Source of the DNA: Agromyces archimandritae
GTDB lineage: Bacteria > Actinomycetota > Actinomycetes > Actinomycetales > Microbacteriaceae
DNA length: 64,000 nucleotides
Direction of reading: 5' to 3'
Assembly: GCF_018024495.1 (NCBI RefSeq)
Contig: NZ_CP071696.1
Location: 2,542,001 to 2,606,000 of the forward strand
Part shown: positions 2,456 to 33,186 of the stretch, piece by piece
Numbering within the stretch: the stretch's first letter is position 1
Layout: every line of letters starts with the position of its first letter
Notes under the pieces: model-generated
What the model was told of the DNA's origin: nothing
What the model saw: only the letters and a program-made list of their open reading frames with translations
Database searches by the model: none
Position numbers and translations under genes: made by a program

Positions 2456-3322
2456 TCACCCCTTGTCTGCGCCGGCCGTGAGGCCCTCGGTCAGGGCGCG
2501 TTCGGCGAACCCGTAGAGCACCACGATCGGTACGGTCAGCAAGACGCTGCCAGCCATGAGGATAGTCTTCGAGACCTCCTGCCCGTCGGCCAGGCGCGTG
2601 AGTCCGAGCGACACGGTCCAGAGATCCTGCTTGGCCGAGAGGAACAGCAGCGCGAAGAGGAACTCGTTCCACGCGATCATGAACGAGTACAACGCCGTGG
2701 ACATGATCGTCGGCATCGCCAGCGGGATCGTGATGCGCGTGATGATCTGCCAGCGGTTCGCGCCGTCGACGAGGGCTGCCTCGTCGATCGACTCGGGGAT
2801 CGTGGCGAAGTAGTTCCGCAGCATGTGCACCGAGACCGGCACCGTGAGGGCGATGTAGGCGATGACGAGGCCCCAGAGGCTGCCGCCGAGGCCGAGCACC
2901 TGGAAGCCGACGAAGATCGGCACGGCGATGATGATGGTCGGGAAGAGGTAGACGGCGAGGAACAGCGCCGAGACCCGCCGGCGGCCGAAGAAGCGCAGCC
3001 GCGAGACCGCGTACGAGGCCGGGATCGTCAGGAGCATCGTGAGCAGCGTCGCCCCGGTGGCCACGATCGCCGAATTCGCCATGAAGCGGCCGAAGCCGTA
3101 GCCGCCCTCCTCGAGGGGCGCGAGCACTCGCCGATACGTCTCGACCGTGACCGAGCCGAGATCCGGGATCAGCATGAGCGGGTTCCGCAGCAGGTCCTCG
3201 ATGCGCACGAAGCTCATCATGAGCATGTAGAGGAACGGGAAGACGGTGACGACGAGGAGGACGGCGATGACGATCCAGCGGAGGATGCCGAGGGTGCGCT
3301 CCTGGGCGCGGACGATGCTCAT
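2456..3322 (-). CDS. Carbohydrate ABC transporter permease, MalG type
   Basis: This 288-residue inner-membrane permease is one of two in a CUT1-type sugar importer. It has about six transmembrane helices. The cytoplasmic EAA loop, which docks the ATPase, reads EAALVDGANRWQIITRITIPL around residues 175-200. The start was taken at ATG 3322 (MSIVRAQ) because it overlaps the stop of the preceding permease gene by ATGA. No ATPase gene is in the operon. Confidence 0.93.
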   Translation of the reverse strand: MSIVRAQERTLGILRWIVIAVLLVVTVFPFLYMLMMSFVRIEDLLRNPLMLIPDLGSVTVETYRRVLAPLEEGGYGFGRFMANSAIVATGATLLTMLLTIPASYAVSRLRFFGRRRVSALFLAVYLFPTIIIAVPIFVGFQVLGLGGSLWGLVIAYIALTVPVSVHMLRNYFATIPESIDEAALVDGANRWQIITRITIPLAMPTIMSTALYSFMIAWNEFLFALLFLSAKQDLWTVSLGLTRLADGQEVSKTILMAGSVLLTVPIVVLYGFAERALTEGLTAGADKG

Positions 3323-4257
3323 GAGGGGTTCCCTTCGCGTCGGACGAAGAACCGCAGGTACAGCAGCAGGGCGATGACGAGGAACGCGGCGAGGACGACC
3401 GCGTTCGCGCTCGCCGCACCGATGTCGCTCGAACCGACGAGCTGGTCGTAGACGCGCACCGCGGCGACCTGCGTGCCGGCGGCCCCGCCCGTGAGCAGGT
3501 AGACGTCGTCGAACTTGTTGAAGGTCATGACGAAGCGCAGCAGGGTGAGCAGCGCGATCGTCGGCATGAGCTGCGGCAGCACGACGAGCCGGAACCGCTG
3601 CAGGGGGGTCGCGCCGTCGACGACCGCAGCCTCCTCGACCTCGCGAGGCAGGCCGGTGAGGGCGGCGGCGAGGAACATGAACGCGAAGGGGAAGTAGCGC
3701 CACGTCTCGAAGAGGATCACGGTCCACAGCGCCTGCGGGGCGGTGCCGAGGAAGTCGACGGGGTGCTCCCAGCCGAGGATGCGGGTGCCCACGGCGTTCA
3801 CGAGCCCGTATTGCGGGTTCAGCAGCACCTCCCACACGAAGGCGACGGCGACGACGGGCGCCACATAGGGCAGGAGCATGACGGCGCGTACGAGTCCGCG
3901 GGCGGGGAAGCGGCGTCGCAGCGCGAGGGCGGCGACGAGGCCGAGGACGATCGAGCCGATCGTGGACCCGGCCGTGTAGACGACGGTCGTGCCGAGCGAT
4001 TTCCAGAACCCGGGCGAGGTGAGGACGTCGAGGTAGTTCTCGAGGGTGAGCGCGTTGAACAGCCCGTTGCGGGCGATGTCGGAGTAGCGCGCCTCCTGGA
4101 AGGAGAGCACGAAGGTCCACGCGATCGGCACGATGATCACGAGCGTGATGATGACGAGGAGCGGGCCCACCATGACGAGGCCGTCGCGGTTCTCGCGGCC
4201 GAGGATGGTGCGGCGGCGGGGCGGGTGCCTCGCCGCCGCGTGCGATGTCGCGGTCAT
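3319..4257 (-). CDS. Carbohydrate ABC transporter permease, MalF type
   Basis: This 312-residue partner permease has six predicted membrane helices. Its EAA loop reads EEAAVVDGATPLQRFRLVVL, followed by the usual proline-rich turn. The N-terminus has a basic cytoplasmic stretch (HPPRRRTILGREN). ATG 4257 sits 2 bp after the binding-protein stop, and the gene overlaps the next permease by 4 bp, so binding protein, both permeases and the ROK gene are translationally coupled. Confidence 0.92.
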   Translation of the reverse strand: MTATSHAAARHPPRRRTILGRENRDGLVMVGPLLVIITLVIIVPIAWTFVLSFQEARYSDIARNGLFNALTLENYLDVLTSPGFWKSLGTTVVYTAGSTIGSIVLGLVAALALRRRFPARGLVRAVMLLPYVAPVVAVAFVWEVLLNPQYGLVNAVGTRILGWEHPVDFLGTAPQALWTVILFETWRYFPFAFMFLAAALTGLPREVEEAAVVDGATPLQRFRLVVLPQLMPTIALLTLLRFVMTFNKFDDVYLLTGGAAGTQVAAVRVYDQLVGSSDIGAASANAVVLAAFLVIALLLYLRFFVRREGNPS

Positions 4258-27363: not shown

Positions 27364-28530
27364 TCAGTCGGTCGCGGCGATCACCGCCGCCGCGACCGCA
27401 TCCGCGACCCCGGCCTCCAGCGGGCTCGGCACGATCCGCTCCGCGGTCGGCGCCTCGACCATGCCGGCGATGGCGGCCGCCGCGGCGAGCTTCATCTCCG
27501 TGGTGATGCGACGCGCCCCGGCGTCCAGCGCCCCGCGGAAGATGCCCGGGAAGGCGAGCACGTTGTTGATCTGGTTCGGGAAATCGCTGCGGCCGGTGGC
27601 GACGACCCGTGCGTGGCGTGCGGCGACCTCCGGGTGCACCTCGGGGTCGGGGTTCGAGAGGGCGAAGACGATGGCGTCCGACGACATCGCGGCGACGGCC
27701 TCCTCGGGCACGGTGCCGGAGGAGACGCCGATGAACACGTCCGCGCCGGCCAGGGCGACGTCGATGCCCCCGGTGAGTCCGCGCGGGTTCGTGCGCGAGG
27801 CGAGCCCGCACTTCACCCCATCGAGCTGCCGATCCGGTCCGAGGACGCCGCGCGAGTCGAGCACGACGAGATCCCGGACCCCGGCGTGCAGCAGCATCTC
27901 CGAGACGGCGACGCCTGCCGCCCCGGCACCCGAGACGACGATGCGGAGCGATTCGAGCGGGCGGCCGACGACGCGTGCGGCATTCGTGAGGGCGGCGAGG
28001 ACGACGACGGCGGTGCCGTGCTGGTCGTCGTGCATGACGGGCATGTCGAGGGCCTCGATGAGCTTCGACTCGAGCTCGAAGCAGCGCGGCGCCGAGACGT
28101 CCTCGAGGTTCACCGCGCCGAAGCTCGAGCGCAGCCGCACGAGCGTCTCGACGATCTCGTCCACGTCGTTGGTCTCGAGCACGATCGGGATCGAGTTCAG
28201 GCCGCCGAAGCGGCGGAACAGCGCCGATTTGCCCTCCATTACGGGCAGAGAGGCGGATGCCCCGATGTCGCCGAGGCCGAGCACGGCGCTGCCGTCCGAG
28301 ACGACCGCGACGAGCCGGCTCGCCCAGGTGTAGCTGCCGGCGGCGTCCGGCGCCTGCTCGATGGCGCGGCTGACCCGGGCGACGCCGGGCGTGTAGGCGA
28401 TCGAGAGATCCCGCTGCGTTTCGAGCGGGGCGCTGAGGGCGATCTCGAGCTTGCCGCCCTCGTGCGCGGCGAAGATCTCGGCGTCGGTGAGGGAGATGGG
28501 GGAGCGGTCGGTGCGTGCGTGGATGCTCAT
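27364..28530 (-). CDS. NAD(P)-dependent malic enzyme
   Basis: The enzyme converts malate to pyruvate and CO2 with reduction of NAD(P). At 388 residues it is the short, single-domain bacterial form. It shows the substrate-binding YTPGVARVSRAI, the metal-binding MHDDQHGTAVVVLAAL near residue 155, the Rossmann VVSGAGAAGVAVSEMLLHAG, and ALSNPDPEVHPE. ATG 28530 follows GAAAGG. It converges on the PabC-like gene with 36 bp between. Confidence 0.93.
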   Translation of the reverse strand: MSIHARTDRSPISLTDAEIFAAHEGGKLEIALSAPLETQRDLSIAYTPGVARVSRAIEQAPDAAGSYTWASRLVAVVSDGSAVLGLGDIGASASLPVMEGKSALFRRFGGLNSIPIVLETNDVDEIVETLVRLRSSFGAVNLEDVSAPRCFELESKLIEALDMPVMHDDQHGTAVVVLAALTNAARVVGRPLESLRIVVSGAGAAGVAVSEMLLHAGVRDLVVLDSRGVLGPDRQLDGVKCGLASRTNPRGLTGGIDVALAGADVFIGVSSGTVPEEAVAAMSSDAIVFALSNPDPEVHPEVAARHARVVATGRSDFPNQINNVLAFPGIFRGALDAGARRITTEMKLAAAAAIAGMVEAPTAERIVPSPLEAGVADAVAAAVIAATD

Positions 28531-28820
28531 CGCGAGCCTTTCGGTCGGCGGGGCGCACGCTGGCGCCCCGGACGGGCGGGGCCGGGTCGGCGCGCGAGCG
28601 GCCGTTGGGCGGGGCGTCGACTGCGGTTCGCTGGCGACCGTCGGTGTGCGACCGGTCGCGCTCTGGCTCGCCACGGGATGCGTCGCGAGGCCGGCGCGGA
28701 GGGTGTTCCGGGCGCCGGAGAGCCTCGACGCTAGCAGCGGCAGCGCGCCGGGGCATCCACTCGCGGGCCGTCGACCCGCGTAAGAACCCGCGATCTTTCG
28801 CTGAACGCAAGAAGCATCGG
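28531..28820. other. Gene-free interval upstream of malic enzyme, at island border
   Basis: These 290 bp separate the malic enzyme start from the end of the lower-G+C operon. No RNA gene or convincing ORF is visible. On the minus strand TAGCGT (28730-28735) could be a -10 for the malic enzyme gene. Base composition changes from GC-rich to lower G+C near 28790. Confidence 0.4.
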
Positions 28821-29408
28821 TTAGGGGAAGCGGTTGAGCATCCTGTGCACAAGATGTGTCGCGGCTGCAGCAGCGCTCGAAGCGGCTACGAGCCACCAGT
28901 CTCTGTCCGGGTCCCACGACGACAACGGGACCGCCCAGGGATCAGGTTCTGCCGCTCCGAATGCGAAACCCATCGCACCGCACACAAGAAAGTATCCGCA
29001 CGGAATCACGAACGCGAGTGAGGGCCAACGGGTCGCCGCGCCCAGTGTGGCGAGAGAGGCGAACAGCAAGACGTTTCGGGCCGTGCCGGGGGCTGTGCCC
29101 TCAGCGAGCATCGACGCGAGCAACAGTGCAAGCAACGGTGGGAGCAGTGCTGCTCCCAGATCAGCCCAAGCCACCGAGACCTGCCTCCGCCCGACCAGTT
29201 CAAGGGTGGACCGACCGCGCGAGACCAGGACGTACCAGAACAAAGCAGGGAAAAGGGCCAACGTGAAGCCCAGGGGCACCATGACGATACCGCCGCGGAG
29301 GCTCGGAAAGGCGTAGCGGAAATCCTGGACAAGCAGGCTTATGCAAGCCAAGACGACGAAGGAGATCAGCCACCACGCGATGCCACGCGACTTAGCCCAC
29401 AGCGTCAT
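28821..29408 (-). CDS. Polytopic membrane protein of the island ABC operon
   Basis: This 195-residue protein has about five to six hydrophobic helices (for example WWLISFVVLACISLLV near residue 12 and LGAALLPPLLALLLASML in the middle) and ends in a short basic tail. I do not recognise the family. ATG 29408 overlaps the ATPase stop by 4 bp, so it is the last gene of the operon. It could be a second permease subunit or an immunity-type membrane protein for the secreted product; both are inference. Confidence 0.75.
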   Translation of the reverse strand: MTLWAKSRGIAWWLISFVVLACISLLVQDFRYAFPSLRGGIVMVPLGFTLALFPALFWYVLVSRGRSTLELVGRRQVSVAWADLGAALLPPLLALLLASMLAEGTAPGTARNVLLFASLATLGAATRWPSLAFVIPCGYFLVCGAMGFAFGAAEPDPWAVPLSSWDPDRDWWLVAASSAAAAATHLVHRMLNRFP

Positions 29409-30145
29409 ACGGCCGAGTACTGCGACATGATCGCCCGATATGCGGATTCTGCTCGCCCGAGCCCAGGACTGATTGAATCAGCCAGGTCGAGGAACTCGTC
29501 GATCGTTCCCTGATATCGTACTCGACCCTCGCTGAGTATGACTGTCTGCCGATAAACATCCTCGATGTCTTCTGTTTGGTGGGTCGAAACCACGATGCCG
29601 GTAGAAGGGGCGATCCGAAGCAGAGTTTGGCGCACGCTGGCCCGTTGTTCGGGATCTAGTCCAGCGTAGGGTTCATCCAGCAATAGTACTGCGGGATTGT
29701 TCACCAACGCTTGACCGATGCCGAGTCTACGACGTTGACCGCCAGAGAGACGGCTGGCTTTCCGGTTTGCAAGAGACGTCAGGTTTGCGGCTTCCATTGC
29801 CGCGGGTGCGGCTTTTCGAGCCGCGCGGATAGTCATCCCTTTCAGCCATCCCGAGTAAGCGATCTGCTGTGCAACCGTCATTCCTGGCACCACTGGGACG
29901 TCTTGAGGCAACCATCCGACCTCAGCCCTGCGCCTAGCCGGGCCGAGGTCTTCCCCTGTGCCTACTCGAATGCTGCCGCGGCGTGGCCGGAGCACCCCGG
30001 CCAAAAGACTTAGCAGGGATGTCTTGCCTGCGCCGTTCGGGCCGAGAAGCACGACCGGCCCTTCGGGTATTGCGATGTCTAGGGCACGGAATACGTCACG
30101 CTTTCCCGCATATCCGAACGAGAGACCTTTTACATCGATGAACAT
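29405..30145 (-). CDS. ABC transporter ATP-binding protein of the island operon
   Basis: This 246-residue ATPase has all catalytic elements: Walker A LGPNGAGKTSLLSLL near residue 32, signature LSGGQRRRLGIGQAL near 125, Walker B VLLLDEPYAGLDPEQR, and H-loop VVSTHQTEDIED. ATG 30145 overlaps the preceding stop as TGATG, with AAGGA 6 nt upstream. Its partners are the membrane proteins on either side. The single-ATPase arrangement fits an exporter of the ABC-2 kind. Confidence 0.9.
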   Translation of the reverse strand: MFIDVKGLSFGYAGKRDVFRALDIAIPEGPVVLLGPNGAGKTSLLSLLAGVLRPRRGSIRVGTGEDLGPARRRAEVGWLPQDVPVVPGMTVAQQIAYSGWLKGMTIRAARKAAPAAMEAANLTSLANRKASRLSGGQRRRLGIGQALVNNPAVLLLDEPYAGLDPEQRASVRQTLLRIAPSTGIVVSTHQTEDIEDVYRQTVILSEGRVRYQGTIDEFLDLADSISPGLGRAESAYRAIMSQYSAV

Positions 30146-31464
30146 CACGAATCCTTGTCTGAGTCTGCGCAGATCGCTTGCGCCGTGAACCAACCTCGCG
30201 CAGATGATTCGGCATCGTTTACCGAGCGGATGGCGAGCATGTCGATCACCTGCTGACTCGAGAGCGCGGTGCCGACTTCCATGTTCACGCTAATGGCTTG
30301 GTCGGGTAGGACCCCGCTGGCATCGCCGCCCATGAGCATGGCGAGGGCATAGCCAGAGATCGTCTCAGGCGGGAGTTGTCCTTCGGCCCAATCGGATTCC
30401 GGGCAGGTGCGTGAGGATGCGATAACAGCGTCGGCATACGTCTTGATGATCGTGTCTCGCCCCGCCGTATCCACTACGCCGACGAGCGTCTCCGAATCTG
30501 GGCCTCGACCGTCCGCGTGGAGGATAGCTCCTGAAACCCGTGAAGGGATATCAATGTCGTGATCTGTTGCGGAGCGGTAGGCGTCTCTGAACGAGGCTTC
30601 GATGATGGTGGCATTCGAAGACGCCCATTGCTCTGGAAACAGGCATATCGAAGGATCGGTTCCTCGACAGACGAGGTCACTGGGTGTGCGCGCCGTTGCA
30701 CCTGTAGGGCCCGTACCTGAGACGATCGTGAGGGCCGCAATCACTCCGGCGGAGAGCACGACTGCACTGCTGGGTGCTGTGACCGACCGATGGGTTCCTC
30801 CTGCCGTGAAGAGAAATGCGGCAATAGCGGCTAGCCCGACCAGGAGCGGGCCGAGAAGAGCCTTCCAGTCTGGCGCATAGGCGAAGCTGTCACAGCAGCC
30901 GAAGAGGGCATATCCGGTAATGTTCCGCCAGGAGACATTCTCAGGGTCGGTATTCGGATAGACGGCCCAAGCGAGTAGGCCGAAGAGTGCGAGGCCAGTG
31001 GCGAGAGGAGCCGGCAAGAGCATTCCTAGCGCAGCTCCGATACTGATCGCTGTGACGGTTTGCACGACCGCGACGACGAGGAGAAGCGCCGCGCTTGTGT
31101 TCGGGGGTGCGGGCAGGGCGATAGCGGATTGGAGAGCCAGGACGGAGATGAAGCCCAGCGCACATGCCCCGAAGAGCGGCCATGTGTACTCCCAGACGAT
31201 CCGTACTGGCCATCGGACTCCGGCTCTCAATACAGCCGTGCTCTTGCGCATTCGGGTGCTGATCGTCCATGCGGCCGCTGCTGCAGCGATTGGAAGCGCG
31301 TACATGAAGCCGTCCGTGGTTCGCGCGACGTAGGCGGTCCAGGAAGGTTGGGGCGGGAATGGCTGGAGAATGCTGACCCAGACGTAGACCATGGCGAGGA
31401 TCACGACGGGGGATGCCCAGTAGGCCGGCGTCGACCACCAGGGGACGACCGGGTGCAGCCGCAT
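30145..31464 (-). CDS. Large membrane protein with C-terminal extracytoplasmic domain, ABC partner
   Basis: This 439-residue protein has about six N-terminal helices spanning roughly residues 10-240. A C-terminal domain without helices follows, starting near LVCRGTDPSICLFPEQW and holding cysteines in CRGTDPSIC, SRTCPE and QAICAD. This layout recalls membrane proteins paired with single ABC ATPases in other actinobacteria, but I cannot name a family firmly. The start follows AAGGAG 5 bp upstream. Because it overlaps the ATPase gene, the two should act as one transporter. Base use is lower in G+C than in the flanking genes. Confidence 0.8.
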   Translation of the reverse strand: MRLHPVVPWWSTPAYWASPVVILAMVYVWVSILQPFPPQPSWTAYVARTTDGFMYALPIAAAAAAWTISTRMRKSTAVLRAGVRWPVRIVWEYTWPLFGACALGFISVLALQSAIALPAPPNTSAALLLVVAVVQTVTAISIGAALGMLLPAPLATGLALFGLLAWAVYPNTDPENVSWRNITGYALFGCCDSFAYAPDWKALLGPLLVGLAAIAAFLFTAGGTHRSVTAPSSAVVLSAGVIAALTIVSGTGPTGATARTPSDLVCRGTDPSICLFPEQWASSNATIIEASFRDAYRSATDHDIDIPSRVSGAILHADGRGPDSETLVGVVDTAGRDTIIKTYADAVIASSRTCPESDWAEGQLPPETISGYALAMLMGGDASGVLPDQAISVNMEVGTALSSQQVIDMLAIRSVNDAESSARGWFTAQAICADSDKDS

Positions 31465-31536
31465 GGATGCTCCTTGAGGTTACTGTGGTGGAGTGGCGTC
31501 GGGTCATGTTCGAGATGACCCGACGCCACATGCTTC

Positions 31537-32070
31537 TCAGTGATTGATGACGACGCTGCTTGCGGAGAACAGATAGCTCCCCTTCGACCCGTGGTAGTAG
31601 CCGTTCGTGTCCGTGACCCCGTTGAGCTGGTAACGGAAGTTACCGGTGAGCCCTGATCCCCACGACATCGTGGTTCCGCAACTCGCCGTGCTGTTCCCGT
31701 ACGAAATCGGGGCGAGGGAGCCGTTCTGCTTTTGGAACTGCATCTGCACCGTGCTGACGGTGTTCCCTGACCCGGTGAGGTAGGACCAGACGCAGCCGCT
31801 CATTCTGATGGACTGCGTCACGGACGCGGACGCCGTCCGGTACGGCCCGACGGTCCCAGTCGTCCAATCGGACATCGTGGTCGTGACCGTCGTGGCATTT
31901 GCCGCGGCTGCACCGCCCGCAACGAGCGCGACGGTGGCCACGACGGTGGCCAACGTTCGCTTCGGTTTCTTCGTGATGGATCCTCTCTCGCTGACCCCGG
32001 CCCGGGAATCGGCGCTCAGTGAACTGGCTTTGTACTTTGGTTGTTTCGCGACAACGGCACTTCCTGACAT
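31537..32070 (-). CDS. Small secreted two-cysteine protein heading the island operon
   Basis: Read from ATG 32070 this is 177 residues. A basic segment (ITKKPKR, about 32-38) precedes a hydrophobic core LATVVATVALVAGGAAA and a signal-peptidase site after ANA (about residue 59). That leaves a mature protein of about 118 residues, rich in Ser, Thr, Gly and aromatics, with two cysteines (Cys93 and Cys131, likely disulfide) and a beta-rich look. The real start is uncertain: 31 residues precede the signal peptide and ATG 32070 has no close ribosome site. No family recognised. Being first in an ABC operon, it may be a bacteriocin-like or other exported effector. Confidence 0.65.
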   Translation of the reverse strand: MSGSAVVAKQPKYKASSLSADSRAGVSERGSITKKPKRTLATVVATVALVAGGAAAANATTVTTTMSDWTTGTVGPYRTASASVTQSIRMSGCVWSYLTGSGNTVSTVQMQFQKQNGSLAPISYGNSTASCGTTMSWGSGLTGNFRYQLNGVTDTNGYYHGSKGSYLFSASSVVINH

Positions 32071-32148
32071 CGTTCGGTGGATCCTATGAAGGAACCGCCC
32101 CGTCAGGTCAGGGCGTGAGTGCTTCGCGTAGCCGTGCACGTGGATGTG

Positions 32149-32204
32149 ATTCCACTGGAACGTCTAGTGCTCTGTCAACTTTCGGAATGCCCCCTGTCAG
32201 GGGG
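32149..32204 (-). promoter_or_regulatory. Promoter of the island operon with palindromes
   Basis: On the minus strand a consensus -35 TTGACA (plus-strand 32173-32178) is followed after 18 bp by TGGAAT (32149-32154) as -10. The perfect palindrome TTCCACTGGAA (32150-32160) overlies the -10, a good place for a repressor. Upstream of the -35 lies CCCCC-TGTCA-GGGGG (32190-32204), an operator or hairpin. The rest of 32071-32406 holds nothing I can identify. Confidence 0.5.
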
Positions 32205-32406
32205 TGCCTCCGAGCGTCGGGCCCGCCATACCGTCTTTCACGACGGGTCGTGCTGACGAGCCGGCCCGTGGATAGTGGCGTGCTCATACTCGGGGACCTC
32301 GACCCCCTACCCGCCAACCGTCACCGGCGGCCCTAACCCCCCCACCGGATGTCCGAGGTTGGCCCGCTCAACGGCGCTGGTACACGCGCGGAACGCGGCG
32401 GCGAAA

Positions 32407-33186
32407 TCAGCCGAAGCGCCCCGACACGTAGTCCTCGGTGGCCTGCACCGCGGGGTTCGAGAAGATCGTCGTGGTGTCGTCGTACTCGATGAGCTTGCCC
32501 GGCTTGCCGGTGCCGGCGATGTTGAAGAACGCGGTCTTGTCGGAGACGCGCGAGGCCTGCTGCATGTTGTGGGTGACGATGACGATCGTGTACTCGGTCT
32601 TCAGCTCCTCGATGAGGTCCTCGATCGCCAGCGTCGAGATCGGGTCCAGGGCCGAGCACGGCTCGTCCATGAGGATCACCTGCGGGCGCACGGCGATCGT
32701 GCGGGCGATGCAGAGGCGCTGCTGCTGCCCGCCGGAAAGCCCGGAACCGGGCCGGTCGAGGCGGTCCTTCACCTCGTTCCACAGGTTCGCCCCGCGCAGG
32801 GAGGTCTCGACGAGCTCGTCGGCGTCGGACTTCGTGATGCGGCGGTTGTTGAGCTTGACGCCGGCGAGCACGTTCTCCTTGATCGACATCGTCGGGAACG
32901 GGTTCGGCCGCTGGAAGACCATGCCGACCTGGCGGCGCACGAGCACAGGGTCGACCTCGGGGTCGTAGAGGTTGTCGCCGTCGATCAGCACCTCGCCCTC
33001 GACGCGGGCGCCGGGGATGACCTCGTGCATGCGGTTCAGGGTGCGCAGGAACGTCGACTTGCCGCAGCCGGAGGGGCCGATGAACGCGGTGACGCTGCGC
33101 GGCTCGATCGCGAGGTCGACGCCTTCGACGGCGAGGAACTTCGAGTAGTAGACGTTGAGATCGCGGACTTCGATGCGCTTGGACAC
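32407..33186 (-). CDS. pstB: Phosphate ABC transporter ATP-binding protein PstB
   Basis: This 259-residue ATPase energises high-affinity phosphate uptake. It has Walker [21 protein letters not shown], the Pst-typical insertion after it, Q-loop FQRPNPFP, signature [16 protein letters not shown], Walker [17 protein letters not shown] and the C-terminal DYVSGRFG characteristic of PstB. The start is GTG 33186 with AAAGGA upstream. It is last in pstSCAB, 23 bp after pstA. Confidence 0.97.

Follow-up and report, generated by a model that had tools for sequence, protein, structure and literature searches.

A low-G+C island of Agromyces archimandritae carries a recurrent actinomycete gene set that may encode a secreted toxin and its guarding transporter

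The stretch of the Agromyces archimandritae genome analyzed here (64,000 nucleotides of contig NZ_CP071696.1, hereafter the window) contains an island of low G+C content in which four minus-strand genes encode a secreted protein (SEC), a large membrane protein (MEM1), the ATPase of an ATP-binding cassette (ABC) transporter and a second membrane protein (MEM2). The island is inserted between pstB and a malic enzyme gene, and the SEC-transporter gene set recurs across several actinomycete families and on Streptomyces plasmids. We consider it about an even bet that the set is a mobile toxin-immunity cassette, with SEC as a bacteriocin-like toxin and ABC-MEM1-MEM2 as its immunity transporter. A preliminary description of this DNA had noted a drop in base composition at about 28.8 to 32.2 kb, and sliding-window G+C bears this out (0.613 versus 0.715). 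Positions 28821-32204 have 61.3% G+C versus a mean of 71.5% (standard deviation 2.7 points) for segments of the same length across the 64 kb; the lowest-G+C segment of that length starts at 28801, and G+C per kb stays at 0.60-0.63 from 29 to 32 kb. The island and its flanks are laid out as follows:

32408..32700, minus strand: flank, 3' end of pstB (partial in the piece shown), which adjoins the malic enzyme gene in six cassette-free relatives
31537..32070, minus strand: SEC, secreted protein with a predicted Sec-type signal peptide and two cysteines; start uncertain
31493..31529, minus strand: inverted repeat between SEC and MEM1, 15-bp perfect stem and 7-nt loop
30145..31464, minus strand: MEM1, membrane protein of 439 amino acids (aa), ABC-2-like domain plus C-terminal ectodomain
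29405..30145, minus strand: ABC transporter ATPase (PF00005, E 1.6e-28)
28821..29408, minus strand: MEM2, second membrane protein, 195 aa, without a family match
27364..28530, minus strand: flank, malic enzyme gene, on the opposite side of the insertion

The tight linkage of the four genes is confirmed by their reading frames and sequence, with a TGATG overlap at the MEM1/ATPase junction (30147-30143) and an ATGA overlap at the ATPase/MEM2 junction (29408-29405). Two features proposed upstream fared less well. Comparison with relatives casts doubt on the 177-residue start of SEC: five homologues start later, with the signal peptide at their N-terminus, at the place where the window reads GAGAGAGGA TCC ATC ACG AAG AAA CCG. 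No ATG, GTG or TTG stands at this homologous position (near 31977-31974), and the in-frame ATG at 32070 puts 32 extra residues ahead of it. Nor did a consensus scan of 28400-32700 on both strands find the shared consensus-like promoter that had been suggested. By eye, TTGACA stands in perfect form at 32178-32173, but the hexamer that follows after 18 bp is TGGAAT, without an A at the second position; also by eye, a perfect palindrome, TTCCAGTGGAA (32160-32150, minus strand), lies just downstream of this TTGACA and upstream of SEC and is a possible operator. The hairpin between SEC and MEM1 (folding z of -6.0 for the intergenic stretch, no T run) is a possible attenuator or processing site. A strong hairpin is often found after SEC in related cassettes, in a comparison that cut two junctions short (L073b and L074b; L and G numbers denote loci and genomes), where the ATPase was probably assigned too early a start in L073 and L074, judging from L129.

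SEC consists of a signal peptide, by prediction of the ordinary Sec type, followed by about 115 residues. An AlphaFold2 model built from six sequences is all-beta (pLDDT 82, pTM 0.72, with the signal peptide at low confidence), and its structural neighbors are generic jelly rolls only, at background level, among them Ena2A and Ena3A. The two cysteines noted earlier are present. Of 25 aligned copies, 23 have a cysteine in both of the corresponding columns, two in neither and none in one alone, and a disulfide between them is likely. The copies lacking both (L044 and L045) are the most alike pair, at 43% identity, so that a single event may account for the two. Many copies also share an ESRRWxD-like stretch. 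As first described, SEC belongs to no recognized family: no Pfam, NCBIfam (judged at cut-off) or PDB family matched it, none of 608 candidates in a database search reached E <= 1, and the family and structure searches gave no clear match to a known enzyme, the outcome that would have spoken against an effector role.

MEM1 combines a transmembrane domain of ABC-2-like fold (residues ~4-228) with a conserved C-terminal ectodomain (~250-439) that is related to DUF7224 and carries the cysteines previously assigned to its extracytoplasmic part. It probably belongs to the same wider family as the DUF7224 proteins (PF23866) and has the same neighbors in the examined loci, but the copy in the window lies below detection by the Pfam model (no match at E <= 10), and that family has no stated function; a full-text literature search for DUF7224 by name gave no paper. 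Three of six aligned MEM1 relatives do match DUF7224 (best E 7.7e-8), and a second MEM1 in the same genome, homologous to that of the window (E 7.5e-12), passes the DUF7224 cut-off. The window MEM1 has no NCBIfam match above cut-off and MEM2 no Pfam family match, and a database search with MEM1 found only the query itself among the 7998 best candidates scored.

That the island is an insertion follows from its flanks. A search for the malic enzyme in 60 genomes of the genus (E <= 1e-80) matched 14, own genome included, seven of the others at 79-82% identity. In six of these seven, pstB lies directly beside the malic enzyme gene with no cassette, and 343-500 bp separate the pstB stop from a conserved motif of the malic enzyme. 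The window has 4002 bp there; the malic enzyme locus of the seventh genome (L098) yielded no pstB. MEM1 matches only two of the 60 genus genomes, namely this one and a weak fragment with an internal stop (G715, 25 bits). The empty site, the rarity of MEM1 in the genus, the G+C dip and the plasmid-borne relatives described below together support the horizontal acquisition proposed earlier, and orthologues at the same locus in most relatives were not seen in the 60 genus genomes. The genome also carries a second ABC-MEM1-MEM2 set without SEC (L047:5452-9141; G000:C1:1473451-1477140), just upstream of which lies an IS481-type transposase gene.

Relatives of SEC and MEM1 were obtained by six-frame genome searches. 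Among 398 genomes of the family, MEM1 occurs in seven and SEC, at E <= 1.3e-6, in six, own genome included in each count; MEM1 adjoins SEC in all six, so that five relatives in the family carry the two side by side. SEC matched 34 family genomes at E <= 0.01, but 28 weaker matches (best E 3.3e-5 to 0.0096, several with internal stops) were set aside, and a rescan of five of these loci (L017, L018, L020, L023 and L024, ~3.1-3.2 kb each) found no such transporter gene. At class level, DUF7224 was found in 23 of 296 genomes, 16 of them above cut-off; the 25 places listed comprise 20 loci that were examined, the second locus of this genome (L047) and four that were left out. A reciprocal SEC search of 246 class genomes gave nine places in seven genomes, four of them already known, and at all three new places with E <= 4.6e-7 (G415, G611 and a second place in G453) the full transporter set adjoins.

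In total 31 loci were profiled (the window, seven further loci, the 20 DUF7224 loci and three from the reciprocal search). With profile matches at E <= 0.001, MEM1 and the ABC ATPase are present in all 31 and MEM2 in 30, the exception being L090. SEC stands first and on the same strand in 15, in the orders SEC-MEM1-ABC-MEM2 (6), SEC-ABC-MEM1-MEM2 (6) and SEC-MEM1-MEM2-ABC (3). Six of these SEC copies (L073, L074, L078, L081, L083 and L085) came to light when the sequence upstream of the transporter was inspected and are therefore no test of a link between the two. The functional link between secreted protein and ABC genes that had been proposed at the outset is strongly supported by the conserved association in shuffled gene orders. 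L046 adds a short SEC-like frame on the opposite strand, and there (L046:6472-9485, genome G220) MEM1 seems split over two frames, whose pieces were searched separately; this is probably a decaying copy.

A search of PLSDB with the SEC of L073 retrieved seven Streptomyces plasmid records, six with the full cassette. Five of the six are annotated and label SEC and both membrane proteins hypothetical, the sixth being unannotated, and we found no description of this four-gene set in the literature. The seventh record (L133, Streptomyces sp. S8) has only a truncated SEC; a few kb away, its annotation lists a cyclase-domain protein and a Pycsar system effector (L133:5965-10466), which places the truncated gene near a probable phage-defense system. 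Transposase genes are annotated upstream of two of the plasmid cassettes: a Mu-type transposase with an ATP-binding protein in Streptomyces sp. NBC_00158 (L135:1308-4806) and IS5 transposases in Streptomyces sp. NBC_01006 (L129:3169-5350). Four loci have two tandem SEC genes before the transporter (L073:2320-3248, L074:2146-3064, L129:6001-6929 and L135:6001-6917). Upstream of SEC in L127:264-1882 and L128:1382-4665 lies a protein with phosphopantetheine-attachment and GNAT-like (acyltransferase-like) matches; the same stretches encode a SnoaL-like protein, whose Pfam match is confined to L128, and that of L128 also encodes an AMP-binding ligase. An acyl modification tied to the system is possible.

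The distribution of the two partners is unequal. Among the 20 class-level DUF7224 loci, SEC is present in six and another small secreted protein in three; a crude signal-peptide scan found no secreted gene in ten, and a contig end cuts the last (L086). The other secreted-looking proteins lie upstream of the ATPase (L084:7010-7330, L089:5101-5403 and, by eye, L088 at ~3100-3535) and are unrelated to SEC by profile. Conversely, a confident SEC without a transporter is a single case, the truncated copy of L133. The transporter is thus often kept without SEC and SEC hardly ever without the transporter, the pattern expected of a toxin and its immunity. Orphan LanFEG transporters have been described in bacteria that do not produce the corresponding peptide (PMC4239024). 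Taken together with the Sec-type export signal and the patchy, plasmid-borne distribution, this asymmetry leads us to favor a toxin with an immunity transporter over a dedicated exporter. The preliminary description had left open whether the ABC genes protect against, export or sense the secreted product; protection fits best, and a dedicated exporter is not needed given the ordinary Sec-type signal.

On the toxin-immunity reading, SEC would be secreted through the general Sec pathway, fold outside the cell into a small all-beta protein with a single stabilizing disulfide, and act on the envelope of cassette-free related bacteria. The ATPase, MEM1 and MEM2 would form an ABC-2-type transporter whose two membrane subunits differ from each other, as those of LanFEG do, and protect the producer by clearing SEC, or target-bound SEC, from the cell surface. 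The MEM1 ectodomain would be the part that recognizes SEC, and the hairpin after SEC may serve to keep its expression above the level of the pump.

LanFEG is the closest parallel for the transporter. It is of ABC-2 type, with one ATPase and two distinct permeases, and confers self-immunity (PMC4239024). The present loci likewise combine a single ATPase with a pair of dissimilar membrane proteins (30/31 loci), which would presumably share one complex; of this pair, MEM1 has an ABC-2-like fold. Just as LanFEG copies occur without bacteriocin genes (PMC4239024), transporter copies occur here without SEC. However, the window MEM1 and MEM2 have no LanE- or LanG-type NCBIfam match at E <= 1, MEM1 bears a large ectodomain, the partner is a folded protein rather than a lanthipeptide, and no LanC-like gene is present in this genome.

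For SEC, the lactococcin 972 and streptococcin B loci offer a comparable arrangement, with a Sec-secreted protein first (beta-type there, all-beta in the model of SEC), dedicated ABC genes after it and a presumed immunity function; the two further genes of lactococcin 972 loci are presumed to give immunity (PMC4055356), a role that is still unproven (PMC11796350). The membrane partner differs, being one protein of 692-696 aa in two loci with PF09683 (L114 and L115) versus 439 aa plus 195 aa here; no such large partner was seen in the third PF09683 locus examined (L116). PF09683 itself occurs in three of 197 class genomes, with this genome not among them. Membership of SEC in the lactococcin 972 family was rejected: none of 14 SEC copies matches PF09683 at E <= 10 (in searches where the HMMER filters drop most matches above ~0.1), and the mature part is unalignable, hhalign of the 14 copies against three PF09683 proteins aligning 25 columns that correspond to the signal peptide only. 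Among the matches listed in the fold searches with the all-beta SEC model, whose neighbors were generic, there was no lactococcin 972 entry. BLB8/JUQZ-1 (NF053514), reported as a bacteriocin (PMC11747845), is also secreted with a signal peptide, as is SEC. Assignment of SEC to this family was likewise rejected as not significant (E 0.33 and 0.11, 11-13 bits versus a cut-off of 40, with one of 14 copies matched).

Several observations weigh against a toxin with its immunity transporter. Two weak SEC-like matches from the reciprocal search (G522 and G443, 21-22 bits) lie in 3.2-kb loci (L122 and L123) that lack a transporter gene of this kind, and the acyl-transfer genes beside the SEC copies of L127 and L128 are not predicted by a toxin. 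We looked for a sign of an arms race, with SEC evolving faster than its partners, and did not find it over six operons, where mean pairwise identity is 31% for mature SEC, 28% for the membrane part of MEM1, 24% for its ectodomain, 41% for the ATPase and 23% for MEM2. The asymmetry may be overstated because divergent secreted genes may hide from the crude scan among the apparent orphans, and the second transporter locus of this genome could have lost SEC only recently via the adjoining insertion element. Fold information on the membrane proteins covers MEM1 only. Finally, toxicity is something we infer, as are the target, the immunity, the disulfide and the roles of the ectodomain and hairpin.

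The alternative that survives best, although we think it unlikely, is that the transporter serves SEC by extracting, modifying, anchoring or assembling it at the surface as a fiber, adhesin or wall component. SEC nearly always comes first in an operon with the transporter, its weak structural neighbors include the self-assembling spore appendage subunits Ena2A and Ena3A, and acyl-carrier and acyltransferase-like genes lie beside two copies. Yet SEC has a Sec signal of its own, those neighbors are generic jelly rolls at background level, transporters with no secreted gene found are common (10/20), and three others lie beside unrelated secreted proteins. Less probable still is signaling or kin recognition, in which SEC would act as a signal that the ABC unit, ectodomain included, senses or takes up, much as BceAB-type units sense peptides. 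The conserved, cysteine-bearing ectodomain and the tandem SEC copies would suit it, but no kinase or response regulator gene accompanies the four genes between pstB and malic enzyme in the window, and the MEM1 membrane domain resembles ABC-2 exporters. Similarly improbable is that the window copy is decaying, its SEC start codon lost after transfer and the transporter alone kept as protection, as the missing start codon and the SEC-less second locus with its upstream transposase gene might suggest; against it, the SEC frame runs uninterrupted through to the conserved C-terminus, the in-frame ATG lies 32 codons upstream, and a GAGAGAGGA motif precedes the homologous start. It is very hard to see the island as an ordinary envelope operon that the genus inherited vertically and whose G+C is low by chance, given the empty site in six same-genus genomes, the confinement of MEM1 to this genome and one weak fragment, and the lowest G+C of the window; only the intactness of the four genes speaks for this view.

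With the toxin-immunity reading preferred, we tentatively put at somewhat under an even chance the broader proposal that these loci represent a new class of antagonism modules in actinobacteria. Their weapons would be folded-protein bacteriocins, Sec-exported and disulfide-stapled, and their guard an ABC-2 transporter with a fused ectodomain that recognizes the folded protein; the cargo would be exchangeable, since small secreted proteins of at least three unrelated kinds adjoin the DUF7224-type transporter. The pairing of a bacteriocin-like protein with an ABC guard is already known; new here are SEC, a MEM2 without a family and a MEM1 tied to a domain of unknown function. What appeared to be an isolated low-G+C oddity is a recurrent, mobile and unnamed gene set of several actinomycete families and Streptomyces plasmids. 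If it is indeed a weapon and its guard, it would add a family of folded-protein bacteriocins, give the DUF7224 proteins a function and provide a case of an ABC transporter that recognizes a folded protein at the cell surface.

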